Below are positions 15,816 through 51,497 of a stretch of 64,000 bases of DNA, in pieces (the first letter of the stretch is position 1; every line of letters starts with the position of its first letter). The stretch comes from Vicinamibacterales bacterium (GTDB lineage: Bacteria; Acidobacteriota; Vicinamibacteria; Vicinamibacterales; Fen-181): NCBI GenBank assembly GCA_036504215.1, contig DASXVO010000070.1, positions 62,001 to 126,000 of the forward strand, given 5' to 3'. Under the pieces are notes generated by a model. That model was not told the origin of the DNA. It was given only the letters and a program-made list of their open reading frames with translations, and did no database searches. The translations under genes and the position numbers were made by a program.

Positions 15816-16859
15816 GTGGAAAAAGCCCGCGCGGTTCTTCGTTCGTGGATCTGGGTCGGCGCCGTCCTCGGGCTCGCGGCCTGTGACTCGTCGCCTGTCG
15901 CTCCGCCGCCCCCCGGGCTGGGGATCAGTTGTCCGGCCGCGGCGAGCGGCGTCTCACATCTGAACGCGCCGGCAATCGTGAGCTGGGACGCGCCGTCGAC
16001 CACCGGTGGCACAGCGCCGGTTACCGTGTCGTGCACTCCCGCACCCGGGACGGCCTTCAACCTGGGATCGACCACGGTGACCTGTCTCGCGTCGGACGCC
16101 CGGCTTCAGGCCGCATCCTGCAGCTTTCCCGTCACCGTCACCCGCGCACCGCAACTCGGCGCCACCCGGTTCATGGCCTTTGGCGACAGCATCACGGAAG
16201 GCAAGTCACAGGATCCGCCGCCGTTCGGCCTGCTCTCGATCTACAACCCGGCGTCATATCCGTACAAGCTGAACAACCTCCTCAAGCTCCGCTTTCCGGA
16301 CCAGGACGTGACGGTCATGAATGAAGGGTTGGCAGGCGAGTTCGTGGCCGACGGCTACAATCGACTGGCGTCCTCGTTGGCGCCCGCCAATCCGGACGCC
16401 GTGTTGCTGCTCGATGGGGCGAACGATCTGCTGAACTTCCCAAGCAGCACGACAACTCAATACATCGCGGGCAAGCTGCGCGACATGGTGCGGCTCGTTC
16501 AATCGAGAAGCGCGGGCCGGACGCCGGTGCTGCTGGCCACGTTCCCGCCCCAGCGGCAGGGCACGTACAAAGATCGGAGCGCCGGCCTCCCGTACGTCCC
16601 CGAACTGAACCAGCGCATCGCGGATGTCGCCCGGACGGAGAAGAACGCCTACCTCGTGGACCTCTACGCGGGATTCCCGACCGACACGAGCCGGCTCATC
16701 AGCGTGGACGGCCTCCACCCGACACCGGAAGGCTATACGCTGATGGCCCAGATCTTCTACCAGGCCGTGCTCGATCACTTCGAAACCAAGCTGGCCGCGC
16801 GGCACGCGCTACCGATTCGTGGAATGATCGCGGGGCCCGAACGCCGGTACCCGCGGTAG
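15816..16859 (+). CDS. SGNH/GDSL hydrolase lipoprotein with HYR-like domain
   Basis: A 347-residue exported lipoprotein with an esterase or lipase fold. The N-terminus carries a lipobox (LGLAAC, Cys23), so it is probably membrane-anchored. Residues about 38-110 look like a hyalin-repeat (HYR) immunoglobulin-like module (CPAAASGVSHLNAPAIVSW, GTTPVTVSC-type spacing, TFNLGSTTVTC-type ending). The SGNH blocks are complete: Ser125 in AFGDSITEG, Gly171 in NEGLAGEF, Asn203 in GANDL, and Asp298 and His301 in VDGLHPT. SGNH enzymes cleave acyl or acetyl esters from lipids, polysaccharides or peptidoglycan. The substrate is not predictable here. The start is GTG, supported by the promoter placed just before it. 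The gene is monocistronic and converges on a small hypothetical gene. Confidence 0.87.
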   Translation: MEKARAVLRSWIWVGAVLGLAACDSSPVAPPPPGLGISCPAAASGVSHLNAPAIVSWDAPSTTGGTAPVTVSCTPAPGTAFNLGSTTVTCLASDARLQAASCSFPVTVTRAPQLGATRFMAFGDSITEGKSQDPPPFGLLSIYNPASYPYKLNNLLKLRFPDQDVTVMNEGLAGEFVADGYNRLASSLAPANPDAVLLLDGANDLLNFPSSTTTQYIAGKLRDMVRLVQSRSAGRTPVLLATFPPQRQGTYKDRSAGLPYVPELNQRIADVARTEKNAYLVDLYAGFPTDTSRLISVDGLHPTPEGYTLMAQIFYQAVLDHFETKLAARHALPIRGMIAGPERRYPR

Positions 16860-40708: not shown

Positions 40709-40812
40709 CTCCTCATCCTTCCTCCTTCATCCTTCATCCTTCCTCCTTCATCCTTCCTCGTTTCTCCCTCCTCCTTCCTCCTTCATCCTTCATCCTTCAT
40801 CCTTCATCCTTG
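40709..40812. repeat. Pyrimidine-rich heptamer microsatellite
   Basis: About 100 bases of almost pure C/T built from ATCCTTC-like heptamers and degenerate forms (CTCCTTC). At least four perfect tandem copies occur at 40783-40811. On the minus strand the unit reads AAGGATG. It sits just downstream of the S9 peptidase stop codon (40823) and before the mannosyltransferase start (40574) on the same strand. The purine strand repeats a Shine-Dalgarno-like AAGGA followed by ATG. No gene is assigned. Confidence 0.85.
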
Positions 40813-46992: not shown

Positions 46993-48036
46993 CTACTTCA
47001 CTCCCCAATCGAGGACCACCTTCCCGCTCTTCCCGCTGTTCATCACCTCGAACCCTTCCTCGAAGCGATCGATCGGGAAACGGTGCGTGATGATCTTGCC
47101 GATGTCGAGACCGCCCTGGATCATCGACGCCATCTTGTACCAGGTCTCGAACATCTCGCGCCCGTAGATTCCCTTGAGGAACAGGCCCTTGAAGATCACC
47201 TTCCCCCAGTCGATGGCGACCTCGCCGGAGAAGATGCCGAGCAGCGCGACCCGGCCGCCGTGGACCATCGCGTCGATCAGGCTCCGAAACGCGGTGGCGT
47301 TGCCGCTCATCTCGAGACCGACGTCGAAGCCCTCGGTCATTCCAAGCTGACCCATGACCTCGCGCAAGCTGGTCTCGGCCGGGTTCACCGCGAGCGTTGC
47401 GCCCATCGAGCGCGCCAGCTCCAGCCGATACGGGTTGACGTCGGTGATGACCACGTTGCGTGCCCCGACGTGGCGCGCGACCGCTGCGGCCATGATCCCG
47501 ATCGGGCCGGCGCCGGTGATCAGCACGTCCTCACCGACCATATCGAACGACAACGCCGTATGGACCGCGTTTCCGTAGGGATCGAAGATCGACGCGACGT
47601 CGTCCGAGATTGAATCGGGCAGCTTGAAGAGGTTGAATGCCGGCAGGCAGAGGTACTCGGCGAACGAGCCCGGCCGGTTGACGCCCACGCCGACGGTGTT
47701 GGGACACAGGTGGCGGCGCCCGGCCCGGCATGCGCGGCAGTGCCCGCAGACGATGTGGCCTTCACCGCTGACGCGGTCACCGACCTTGTACCCGTCGACC
47801 TCGACACCCACCTGCTCGATCGCGCCGGCGTACTCGTGGCCGACGTGCATGGGCACCGGGATCGTCTTCTGCGCCCACGCATCCCAGTTCCAGATGTGCA
47901 GGTCGGTGCCGCAGATGGCGGATTTGTGGATCCGTATCAACACGTCGTTGGGGCCGATTTCCGGCACCGGCACGTGCTGCATGACCAGTCCCGGCTTGGC
48001 CTCGGCTTTCACGAGCGCACGCATCGTCTTCGACAT
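46993..48036 (-). CDS. tdh: L-threonine 3-dehydrogenase
   Basis: A 347-residue zinc medium-chain dehydrogenase. It oxidises L-threonine to 2-amino-3-ketobutyrate with NAD+ in the cytoplasm. Catalytic zinc ligands are Cys42 in [12 protein letters not shown], His67 and Glu68 in GHEYAG. The structural zinc cysteines are in [33 protein letters not shown] is the threonine-dehydrogenase-specific form, and the Rossmann motif is [23 protein letters not shown] further supports Tdh over sorbitol dehydrogenase. The length is within a few residues of E. coli Tdh (341). GGAGG stands 5 bases before ATG 48036. Usual partner kbl (2-amino-3-ketobutyrate CoA ligase) is not in the window. Confidence 0.94.
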
Positions 48037-48132
48037 GAGAACCTCCGTTTATGACGCCGTTCGGCAGGCCGCCACACGAACCCGCCTGGGATTCCTCGCT
48101 TCGTAGAGACTAGCCCGAGCGGCACGCGAGCA

Positions 48133-49971
48133 TCAAGCGAGGCGGCCACGCCGATGCCCTCCCGTTCGAGCGTCATCGCGGACACTGCGCGTCAGGCCGG
48201 CGATTGCGGTCAGCAGCACCGCCAGCCACGACGCCGCCAGTGCAGGCGGGAACCAGACGGGAATCGCCTGCATGTCCGGCAGTCGGCGCCGCGCGCGTTC
48301 CAGGTGCAGCGGGAAGACGTCGATACCCGCGCCGGGTGGCGCGGCGAGGCCGAGCGGGCCGCTCCCCAGCGTCTGCACGAACGGCACGTAGTCCAGACGA
48401 TAGCGATTCCACGGACGCCCCGGTGCGGCCGCCACGCGCTCGTAGTAGTTCTGTCGGACGCGGCCCGCGAGGTCTTGTCCCATCGTCTGGTCCTGCACGA
48501 ACGACACGCCGACCGCCGCAGCTGCCATGAAGCACCCCATCACGACTGCGACGGCCAAGCCACGGCCGAGTGGCGCGGGCGTCCCCCCCGGGCGGACAGG
48601 CGAGACGCCTGTCCCACTCGAACCGAGTGGCGCGGGCGTCCCCCACGGGCGGACAGGCGAGACGCCTGTCCCACTCGAACCGAGTGGCGCGGGCATCCCC
48701 CCCGGGCGGACAGGCGAGACGCCTGTCCCACTCGAACCGAGTGGCGCGGGCGTCCCGCCCGAACCGAGTGGCACGGGCGTCCCGCCCGTGGGGTCCGGAT
48801 CGTCCACCGCCATTGCCAATATCAGCACGAGCAGCGGAATCAGCGGAACCAGGTGCCGCGGGCCGTGCGAGTAACCGCCCTCCGGGAAGAAGTAGCTGCC
48901 ATAGAAGGTGAGCGCGATCCCGGCGGACATCAGGATTCCCACGACAGGAGCCCGACACTGTCTCCATGCCCTGGGAATCCGAGCGGCCACGAGCAGCAGG
49001 ACTGGTGCCCAGACGAAGAGCGACTTGCCGGGCGACGCCAACAGCACCAGCAAGCCACGCGGCAGCTCGTCGAGCGCGAATGGCCGCGGCGTGCCTCCGG
49101 CCACCGTCTCGCCCCACGCGTATCCGAAGTCGAGCGGCGATCCGAACCGGACCAGGTTGTAGCCGGCGTGCCCCGCGCCAGCGACTGCGATTCCCGCGCA
49201 CAGCATCGCCGCCGCCGTCATCCGGATCCGGCGAGGCACGGACGAGTCGAGAAGGACGGCGACGACCAGTCCGGGCAGCAGGATGATGGCCGTGGGTTTC
49301 ACGAGACCCGTCACGGCGAGCAACACGCTGGCACACACCACCCATTTCCCCGCGCCCGCAATCCGGCGCCGCGCCAGCAGCAGACACACGGTTGCCCACA
49401 TCAGCCCGGAGGCAACGAATGCCTCCGCGAAGAATGATGTCGCGTAGGGCCAGAGCGGAGTGGCGACGCCGAGTGCCAGGGACAGGGTGGACGCGTACCG
49501 CACGGAACGTCCCAGCAACAGACACGCGAAGAAGAAACCGACGACCGTGAGCGCCGTCGCCGTGGAGGTTGCGAGTGAGGTCAGGCCTGCGACGAGCACC
49601 AGCCACGGCCGTCCGCCTGGCAACGGTTCGCGGCGGACACCGGCAAGCGCCGCTACCGCCCGCGCGGCCAGGTGATGCGGCACGGCCAGAATGGCCGCGA
49701 ATGGCCCGTAGGGTGCGTACGCCTCGCCGTCCCTGCCAATCTTCCCGAACAGAATCGGACGGACCGCGACACGCCCGTCCGGCTGTCGCACTTCCTCGGT
49801 CAACACGAGCGTCTGGGGCACCGAGAGCCTGTGGCGATCGACCAGGCTCTCCGTCTGGAAATACACCTCGAATTCGTCCGGCAGGCGGAACACGTTCCCG
49901 GACGACGTCAGGGCATAGAGAGCCTGGAACGCCAGAAAGAGCCAGGCAGCAACGTGGAACGGTCGGCGCAC
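48133..49971 (-). CDS. GT-C type membrane glycosyltransferase-like protein with internal repeat linker
   Basis: A 612-residue polytopic membrane protein. A first helix (VAAWLFLAFQALYALTSS) is followed by a loop with FRLPDEFEVYFQTESLVD, whose acidic residues resemble the catalytic loop of GT-C/GT39 enzymes. About ten further helices follow (TALTVVGFFFACLLLGRS, VVGILMSAGIALTFYGSYFF). Between helix LVLILAMAV and helix GLAVAVVMGCFMAAAAVG is a roughly 75-residue linker of a 19-residue repeat (GTGVSPVRPGG, TPAPLGSS), produced by in-frame DNA repeats. The C-terminus is again soluble and then hydrophobic. GTG 49971 gives the natural start, and an upstream GTG at 50034 is an alternative. It forms a minus-strand cluster with two other such enzymes, 65 bases downstream of the first. 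Confidence 0.75.
   Translation of the reverse strand: MRRPFHVAAWLFLAFQALYALTSSGNVFRLPDEFEVYFQTESLVDRHRLSVPQTLVLTEEVRQPDGRVAVRPILFGKIGRDGEAYAPYGPFAAILAVPHHLAARAVAALAGVRREPLPGGRPWLVLVAGLTSLATSTATALTVVGFFFACLLLGRSVRYASTLSLALGVATPLWPYATSFFAEAFVASGLMWATVCLLLARRRIAGAGKWVVCASVLLAVTGLVKPTAIILLPGLVVAVLLDSSVPRRIRMTAAAMLCAGIAVAGAGHAGYNLVRFGSPLDFGYAWGETVAGGTPRPFALDELPRGLLVLLASPGKSLFVWAPVLLLVAARIPRAWRQCRAPVVGILMSAGIALTFYGSYFFPEGGYSHGPRHLVPLIPLLVLILAMAVDDPDPTGGTPVPLGSGGTPAPLGSSGTGVSPVRPGGMPAPLGSSGTGVSPVRPWGTPAPLGSSGTGVSPVRPGGTPAPLGRGLAVAVVMGCFMAAAAVGVSFVQDQTMGQDLAGRVRQNYYERVAAAPGRPWNRYRLDYVPFVQTLGSGPLGLAAPPGAGIDVFPLHLERARRRLPDMQAIPVWFPPALAASWLAVLLTAIAGLTRSVRDDARTGGHRRGRLA
48566..48790. repeat. 57-bp tandem palindromic repeat array inside a membrane protein gene
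   Basis: Three complete 57-base units start at 48566, 48623 and 48680, followed by two 27-base half units at 48737 and 48764. Each full unit holds a perfect inverted repeat GGACAGGCG-AGA-CGCCTGTCC. Copies differ by only one or two bases, so expansion is recent. 57 and 27 are multiples of three, so the host gene stays open and gains a 19-residue repeat. There are no spacers, so it is not a CRISPR array. Confidence 0.95.
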
Positions 49972-50036
49972 GGCCCCGAGTATACGGCACCCGTGCCGCT
50001 GCCGCGCGGCTGTTCTGGGGACTCGCGACGCCACCG

Positions 50037-51497
50037 TCAGCGCGTCGGGACAGGCTTGGGGCGGAAGAGCAGGTTCGGGTTCGGCTCACCACCGGCCACG
50101 GCGACCGGCACCGCGTTGGCCGCCAGGATGAGTTCGGCCGGCAGGTATCGGGCGGCAAGTGCGCTCGCAAAGCCTTCCGGTTCGACCACGACGACCGCAC
50201 CGTACTGCCCCGTGCGAATACGCGCCTCCAGTTCGGTGCGAATCCGTCCCACGTACGGCCGCGGGCCGACGAGCAACGGCACGCGCCCCGCGTGACCGGG
50301 CTTTCCCGCCAGCCGCGCGAGGTAGGGCCGTTCGAACACCAGCACCGGCCCGTCGGCGGATCGGATCGCGTCGACCAGCGTCATCCCTCCCGCCCGATCC
50401 GATGCCGTCGGTACTTGCGCCACCGGGTTGTACACCAGGCCTGCGAACTGCAGGAGCGCCAGCGCGTAAACAGCCGGCATGTGCCGTCGTCCCCACGCAT
50501 CGATCGACAGCCGGTGCAGTGCCAGGCCGAAGACAACAGCGAGCCAGGCGAAGAACGGGATCAGCGCGTTCTCCGCGGTGCTCGCGTGGGCTTCGACATA
50601 CACCGTCGCGACGAACCAGCCGACGGTCAGCGCGACGACGAACTGAAAGGCATGGGAGTCAGCAAAGTGGGACCGTCCGCGGCGGATGAGCCACACGGCC
50701 GCCAGACACGCGATCGGAACGGGCCACACCAGGTCGAACCACTTCGTCCAGAGCCGGCTCATGACAAGCGGTGTCGTCACCAGCGTATGGCGAGAGAACC
50801 AGCCGCCCGACGAGTACTCGAGCGCCAGCCCCGCGACGGCCACCAGAACACCCGCCGTCGCCATGAACGCCACCGCGCGACGCCTGTCCCACCATACGAC
50901 GGCGACGACCATGGGCACGCCGAGCAGAAGCGCCGTCTGTTTCGTCACACACGCGGCCGCAAACGCCACGCCCGCCACGATCGCATCGAGCCTGCCACGC
51001 GCAAAGCGCAGCCGATAGACGGAGGTCATCAGGAACGCGAGGAAGAGCGAGTCCGGCCTGGCAATGTCGAACCAGGCGCCCGTCCGGCGAAACGTCGCGG
51101 CAAACAGGCAGACGGCCAGGAAGGCGGCAAACCTGTCCCGAGTCTCGCGCCAGACGAACGCGAAGATGATCGCCATCACGGCAATCGACGACAGGAACGA
51201 CACGAGGCGAAGCGCGAGGAAACCTTCCCCGAGCCACGCTGCCACGGCCGCCGACACGTAGTAGTAGCCCGGCGCGTACATCGTCGCGACGAAGTCCAGT
51301 GAAGGAGGTGGATAGACGTTCTGGCCGAGGAGCACGCGATGAACGTGATCGAGGATGGTCCCCTCGAGGACCTCGATGTCGAAGGGAAAGGCCATCCGGG
51401 CCAGCGCGACAGCGGTGTACGCGAGGAGATAGGCGGCACCCACCGACACGAGGAGTGCACGCAGGGCGTGGATGAAGTCGGGTTGGCGTCGCGTCAA
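50037..51497 (-). CDS. GT39-like (GT-C) membrane glycosyltransferase
   Basis: A 486-residue polytopic protein. It begins with helix LLVSVGAAYLLAYTAVALARM and a loop with PFDIEVLEGTILDHVHRVLLG. The acidic pair in this loop is typical of GT-C enzymes using lipid-phosphate sugars. YAPGYYYVSAAVAAWLG is the conserved second block, and FDIARPDSLFLAFLM resembles the substrate-contacting loop. Many helices follow. The soluble C-terminus (ALAARYLPAELILAANAVP) is short. The start is TTG at 51497, supported by GAGGAG 4 bases upstream. It lies between the other two GT-C genes on the same strand, with a 38-base gap to the upstream gene, and probably belongs to a common transcription unit for modifying a surface glycan or protein. 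Confidence 0.8.
   Translation of the reverse strand: MTRRQPDFIHALRALLVSVGAAYLLAYTAVALARMAFPFDIEVLEGTILDHVHRVLLGQNVYPPPSLDFVATMYAPGYYYVSAAVAAWLGEGFLALRLVSFLSSIAVMAIIFAFVWRETRDRFAAFLAVCLFAATFRRTGAWFDIARPDSLFLAFLMTSVYRLRFARGRLDAIVAGVAFAAACVTKQTALLLGVPMVVAVVWWDRRRAVAFMATAGVLVAVAGLALEYSSGGWFSRHTLVTTPLVMSRLWTKWFDLVWPVPIACLAAVWLIRRGRSHFADSHAFQFVVALTVGWFVATVYVEAHASTAENALIPFFAWLAVVFGLALHRLSIDAWGRRHMPAVYALALLQFAGLVYNPVAQVPTASDRAGGMTLVDAIRSADGPVLVFERPYLARLAGKPGHAGRVPLLVGPRPYVGRIRTELEARIRTGQYGAVVVVEPEGFASALAARYLPAELILAANAVPVAVAGGEPNPNLLFRPKPVPTR

Follow-up and report, generated by a model that had tools for sequence, protein, structure and literature searches.

An array of near-identical, hairpin-bearing units lies within the gene for a membrane protein in a Vicinamibacterales bacterium, which raises the questions of what this sequence is, how it came to lie in frame in a gene, and whether the protein has put it to use. 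The window analysed here is a 64,000-nucleotide stretch of the genome (contig DASXVO010000070.1, positions 62,001 to 126,000), and the array occupies positions 48566-48790 of it.

Units of the array and the host protein

Three 57-bp units, two 27-bp half units and a perfect 9-bp inverted repeat had been predicted at this locus from the DNA alone, and all of them were found, as follows.

48133-50034, minus strand: host open reading frame, a 633-aa membrane protein, glycosyltransferase-like by a weak match; the array encodes TGGTPVPLGSGGTPAPLGSSGTGVSPV...
48566-48622, plus strand: 57-bp unit 1, a REPIN-like inverted doublet made of a type B REP (tag GTGG; decayed second stem arm) and, after it, a type A REP in reverse
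48623-48679, plus strand: 57-bp unit 2, one difference from unit 1
48680-48736, plus strand: 57-bp unit 3, one difference from unit 1
48737-48763, plus strand: 27-bp half unit, a single REP type B
48764-48790, plus strand: 27-bp half unit, a single intact REP type B (GTGGCACGGGCGTCCCGCCCGTG is 48768-48790)
48594-48614, no strand assigned: first copy of the type A hairpin, whose 9-bp inverted repeat is perfect and whose loop is 3 nt long
48651-48671, no strand assigned: type A hairpin copy 2
48708-48728, no strand assigned: type A hairpin copy 3

The inverted repeat, GGACAGGCG-AGA-CGCCTGTCC, is present without mismatch over its 9 bp, and with its 3-nt loop, in every 57-bp unit. Pairwise, these units differ at 1, 1 and 2 positions, and this near-identity backs the proposal that the array expanded locally and recently. 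The hairpin core pattern occurred three times in the window compared with 0 in 100 dinucleotide shuffles, and the half-unit pattern occurred five times compared with 0 in shuffles. A search of positions 47500-50000 against Rfam gave no match. One REP-like match at position 16511, with 5 mismatches, was taken as chance and disregarded. Elsewhere in the window, at 40713-40811, a 7-bp unit, TCATCCT, is repeated 14 times.

When dispersed copies were compared side by side, the elementary unit was found to pair a tag (GAGTGG in most cases) with an 8-9 bp hairpin that has a loop of 3 nt, and this hairpin exists in form A, GGACAGGCG-TCT-CGCCTGTCC, and form B, CACGGGCG-TCC-CGCCCGTG. The description of the repeat as a palindromic element therefore needs to be modified. 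It is dispersed and does bear hairpins, but the 57-bp unit is made of two inverted REPs, a forward B and a reverse A with their tags pointing outward, rather than being a single palindrome, and each half unit is a single B REP with the tag GTGG and an 8-bp hairpin. In the window array, the right stem arm of B has decayed in each 57-bp unit. The elements have the length (20-40 bp) and the short perfect palindrome of REPs, and the REPIN arrangement, two inverted REPs with a short spacer, is seen in the 57-bp unit and in several dispersed A/B inverted pairs. As for the tag, GTGG is found in most copies and GTAG in one of those listed, which agrees with the accepted definition of GTAG or its variant GTRG (PMC3733652) but not with strict GTAG.

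The gene caller favours a start at 49971 for the host open reading frame, which would yield a protein of 612 aa. The array is in frame with this gene, the coding signal extends past the array both ways, and hydrophobic stretches flank it, the preceding one ending in LIPLLVLILAMAV, in agreement with the predicted linker between two membrane helices. The host had also been called a membrane glycosyltransferase. The membrane assignment holds, but the enzymatic one comes down to a weak match to the NCBIfam LA3751 family (21 bits, cut-off 200), and the host protein had no match in Pfam. The neighbouring gene (50037-51497) is PMT_2 in Pfam.

We aligned 15 homologues of the host protein and found the repeat to be absent from 14 of the 14 that reach the array region; at about 25-35% identity, these homologues are too distant to reveal the exact empty site. 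A linker conserved in all orthologues would have marked an ordinary protein repeat. The array region is probably a disordered linker, rich in Gly, Thr, Pro and Val, in the loop between the two helices. The original prediction further held that the repeat was domesticated. We observed no sign of a host function, and the disorder predicted for the insert carries little weight, as the model is poor over 209 of the 612 host-protein residues, this region among them.

Dispersed copies and the REP-flanked transposase gene

A BLAST search with the array gave 76 matches in the 5.92-Mb genome, and the B core was present in 67 copies at one mismatch or fewer, compared with 0 for a backward-pattern control, i.e., the element is dispersed in many copies in this genome, as REPs are. 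We read 51 further stretches in addition to the window (52 in all) and classified 92 units at four mismatches or fewer, using a codon-usage gene caller trained on the source genome to class their locations; some stretches (e.g. L054 and L055) held no unit at this threshold. This search for intergenic copies, suggested as a check in the original prediction, placed 44 of the 92 units between called genes and 48 inside them. The units occur in both orientations. Because the window is approximately 92% coding, random landing would hit genes far more often than this, which suggests that most internal insertions were lost or never tolerated.

The source genome contains a single PF01797 gene, its only Y1 transposase gene (C54:195810-196259, 150 codons). 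Three REP units lie upstream of this RAYT gene and at least three downstream, within about 220 bp, whereas about 0.0025 REP clusters would be expected by chance per side (assuming 60 clusters); the gene is thus flanked by the same element, as in a REP family. Residues H65, H67 and Y125 are invariant in 26 aligned RAYT sequences and provide the HUH motif and the catalytic tyrosine; by its place, Y125 would be the nucleophile. TnpA_REP (4er8) was the best PDB profile match (E=4.1e-8) as well as the best fold match of the RAYT model (pLDDT 82, E=2.2e-7), so that the predicted fold is that of TnpA_REP. The RAYT scored 71 bits against NCBIfam NF047646 (REP-associated transposase; curated cut-off 80), and the next family scored 16 bits.

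Among 80 genomes, including the source, the REP family was numerous in the source genome only. A long-standing element of the genus was rejected, since the core at one mismatch or fewer was found in 0 of 4 congeners and in 1 of 79 relatives, a genome from another genus of the same family with one core copy at one mismatch. Further, diverged REPs with alternating GTGG and GTAG tags were observed in that genome, at L207:1454-1566. Some Y1 transposase was present in 51 of the 80 genomes (source included), none among those compared being close to the RAYT of the source. Presence of a Y1 transposase was therefore rejected as a predictor by itself; only a matching REP-RAYT pair is informative. The closest proteins to this RAYT came from Omnitrophota, Sumerlaeota and Verrucomicrobia-type genomes (up to 53% identity), while fetched proteins of its own order reached at most about 36%, suggesting horizontal gain. 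From this distribution, the REP-RAYT pair was probably acquired horizontally and spread recently.

A scan of 84,980 species yielded 28 RAYT relatives, mostly in Verrucomicrobia and other PVC, and also in Sumerlaeia/BRC1, Omnitrophota, Aminicenantes, Thermoanaerobaculia and one named Chlorobiaceae. In 18 of the 28, the RAYT has hairpins that share an inner stem on either side, which makes 19 of 29 loci when that of the source genome is counted, compared with 0 of 488 control positions. A matching pair was not seen at 10 of the 29 loci. The flanking hairpins differ among loci yet are alike, e.g. GTGG-CTCGGGCG in a Sumerlaeia genome, which fits coevolving REP-RAYT pairs. At L149:3626-5347, a RAYT is followed by a peptidase M28 domain within one open reading frame.

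Copies inside genes, reading frames and competing explanations

Internal copies are present in at least 15 genes, and 32 of the 92 units, at 15 of the 52 stretches, lie inside genes with coding signal on both sides. Pfam identified the first twelve of the following REP-carrying genes.

dnaE, DNA polymerase III alpha subunit
mutL (MutL)
argS, arginyl-tRNA synthetase, with six 30-bp units (L062:2066-2238)
P-type cation ATPase
tRNA uracil methyltransferase-like protein
metallo-beta-lactamase fold protein
GTPase
iron-sulphur protein
family-9 glycosyltransferase
FGAR amidotransferase
polysaccharide biosynthesis protein
RNase H-like protein
IleRS-like class I tRNA synthetase, with approximately eleven 30-bp units near its end (L065:2049-2366)

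The REP-carrying proteins at L067 and L213 had no match in Pfam; the long open reading frame at L213 holds a REP-derived array with a 39-bp unit in five or more copies (L213:1013-1191). The IleRS-like gene stands outside the count made by the two-sided coding-signal score, and relatives match both sides of its array, up to residue ~685 and then from ~784, in 11 of 12 cases, the twelfth (G005) matching weakly and over only a portion of its length; the array itself is missing from the relatives. Both parts of ileS were matched at more than 40% identity in 8 of 10 fetched loci. For argS, both flanks were matched in 11 of 12 relatives and the array in none (DNA displayed for two), the twelfth (G003) matching the C-terminal part only. 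The region around the dnaE insert varies in length among relatives, and the empty-site case is less clear there. In-gene arrays grow in steps of 30, 39 and 57 bp, all of which are multiples of three.

It had been proposed that open reading frames through the repeat might let such elements land in genes without damage. Neither the array nor the consensus REPs contain a stop in any of the six frames. However, when the bases of the unit, which is 77% G+C, were shuffled, 25.8% of the resulting sequences were also open in all six frames, and we therefore attributed this openness mainly to composition and rejected it as a special property. Nor is openness the main reason for tolerance, since in-gene sense copies use one of three frames. 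Units in sense orientation are present at 11 of these 15 stretches, and each of the 11 yields the peptide SGTGVPPV, intact or decayed, with frame classes assigned by hand from the peptides; p = 5.6e-6 for 11/11 in one frame if frames are equally likely, a value to be read with the reservation that the loci may not be independent. Reverse-oriented units were read as GTPVPL at 4 loci, GRDARAT or its type-A form at 5 and RAGRPCHS at 1.

We conclude, with a probability of roughly 0.87, that the array is a cluster of REPs from a REP/RAYT system, in which a doublet would have been pasted by the RAYT, duplicated locally and tolerated as a linker. The assignment to this system is based on the tag and hairpin of the unit, its dispersal in the genome, the sole Y1 gene with its REP flanks, and the host homologues without the insert. 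In the mechanism that we envisage, the RAYT would act as TnpA_REP has been proposed to do, nicking a single-stranded REP hairpin and pasting a doublet into the gene. The doublet would then be duplicated in 57- and 27-bp steps, both multiples of 3, by recombination or by slippage during replication, and the array could persist as a Gly/Thr/Pro/Val-rich linker in an inter-helix loop, where insertion would be tolerated.

The in-frame position of the array and the low-complexity, Gly/Pro-rich peptide that it encodes would also be expected of an ordinary tandem repeat in the protein that selection had favoured as a linker, with the DNA palindrome being incidental. We give this explanation almost no credence, because the unit is also found in intergenic DNA (44/92), in both orientations and around the transposase gene, and because the repeat is missing from the homologous proteins. 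A MITE-like non-autonomous element moved by another transposase, with the RAYT as a chance neighbour, is highly unlikely as well, given that REPs flank the RAYTs of relatives far above control and that the genome's own RAYT is its only Y1 gene. True domestication, in which the array would have been recruited, e.g. as a spacer tuning helix distance or as a switch through repeat number, is improbable. The strong frame bias among in-gene sense copies and the extension of in-gene arrays by steps of three bases speak for it, but any tolerated array must grow in frame anyway, the homologues manage without the array, and the same peptides are found in many unrelated proteins at one-off sites, which fits tolerance better. 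Altogether, our results indicate a REP/RAYT family that is tolerated and locally amplified within a gene, and the reading of the array as domesticated is not supported.

RAYTs inside host enzymes and known REP systems

Of the 28 relatives, 15 have their RAYT embedded in frame in a host open reading frame with recognisable host domains, namely LeuRS (4), HsdR (9), CarB (1) and MetH (1). Host domains were found on both sides of the RAYT in 11 of the 15, and a contig end cuts one side in the other 4. These loci, and further ones from a single order, are as follows.

L130, L131, L134, L135, L137-L141, L143-L146, L150, L153: embedded RAYTs in LeuRS, HsdR, CarB and MetH open reading frames
L219, L223, L230-L233, L239, L241, L246: further embedded RAYTs from one order, in LeuRS, CarB and HsdR, and one adjoining an adenosine deaminase domain

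Where hairpins were found, the embedded RAYTs are bracketed by REP-encoded linkers, and those beside the RAYT in LeuRS read as REP peptides. The LeuRS editing domain hosts a RAYT at two different places, one in a Sumerlaeia genome and the other in Akkermansiaceae. The LeuRS proteins of L130 and L153 retain the N-terminal part and KMSKS; that of L131 was read from an internal start only. Among 12 pairs tried for dN/dS, of which 2 were saturated (the LeuRS pair among them), values were 0.08-0.19 for RAYTs inside HsdR (7 pairs) and 0.06-0.12 for free-standing RAYTs (3 pairs). Where tested, embedded RAYTs are thus evolving under purifying selection.

In the order of one embedded-RAYT genome, a RAYT was found in 79 of 112 genomes, and among the 150 matches listed in that search, 31 open reading frames had at least 750 codons and 99 had at most 300. 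Nine scanned frames of at least 594 codons, picked by length among the fetched loci, carried the RAYT inside or beside LeuRS (5), CarB (2), HsdR (1) and adenosine deaminase (1); in one CarB case the Y1_Tnp score of 21.5 bits fell short of the cut-off (23), and for the deaminase only the downstream host part was matched. No description of a RAYT in frame within LeuRS, CarB, MetH or HsdR was found among titles and abstract starts of the open-licence PMC literature, and the embedding of the gene in frame in host enzymes looks new. We consider it an even chance that this REP/RAYT clade is partly coding DNA, with REPs acting as harmless linkers in preferred frames and the REP-bracketed RAYT persisting as an internal domain of host enzymes, intein-like without splicing. 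Under this reading, the RAYT would persist as a protein domain because only an exact deletion could remove it.

REPs are extragenic by name, and the Rickettsia palindromic elements (RPE) are palindromic and lie in frame inside many genes. Compared by description only, RPE are like the present array in being palindromic elements in frame within genes, and differ in their host. PMC3733652 (Di Nocera and co-workers) reports that no dedicated transposase was found for CGTC-type elements, the class of RPE-4 and RPE-6. It also describes the GTAG-20 elements of O. terrae, which resemble the present family, by description rather than by consensus sequence, in their tag and short perfect hairpin, their head-out dimers and a RAYT flanked by REPs, and most of which have the tag GTGG. 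According to that paper, intragenic REPs are found in many replication, repair and translation genes, tRNA synthetases included, intragenic GTAG-type REPs are most numerous in O. terrae, and several acidobacterial transposases are TIRYTs, flanked by long TIRs instead of REPs.

REPINs, as presented in PMC3116915, are inverted doublets of REPs like the 57-bp unit, with some doublets in tandem clusters, but they were studied in extragenic space, whereas the elements described here are present in at least 15 genes. The accounts of TnpA_REP/RAYT (4er8; PMC8266576; PMC2817692) agree with the RAYT of the source genome in the HUH and tyrosine motifs, the fold and the REP-flanked gene, and a Marinomonas RAYT is described as still cutting a GTGG substrate (PMC8266576). 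The RAYT of the source genome differs from TnpA_REP in being short (150 aa), in lacking a middle segment that most relatives have and in scoring below the NCBIfam cut-off, and its relatives, unlike TnpA_REP, are often embedded in frame in host enzymes. No paper on the sequence of the repeat or the peptide GRDARAT was found in the open-licence PMC literature. Intragenic REPs and GTGG tags are already known, and the window array alone is a further case of a known type.

These findings carry a warning for annotators. The survey in PMC6006769 discarded TnpA proteins of unusual length, regarding them as fused genes or faulty annotations. The embedded RAYTs, with the purifying selection detected on those tested, are relevant to the question of how RAYTs can last so long in single copy. 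Finally, a REP family with an identified transposase that lies in frame in housekeeping genes, and with a measurable frame preference, raises the question of what makes mobile repeats translatable.
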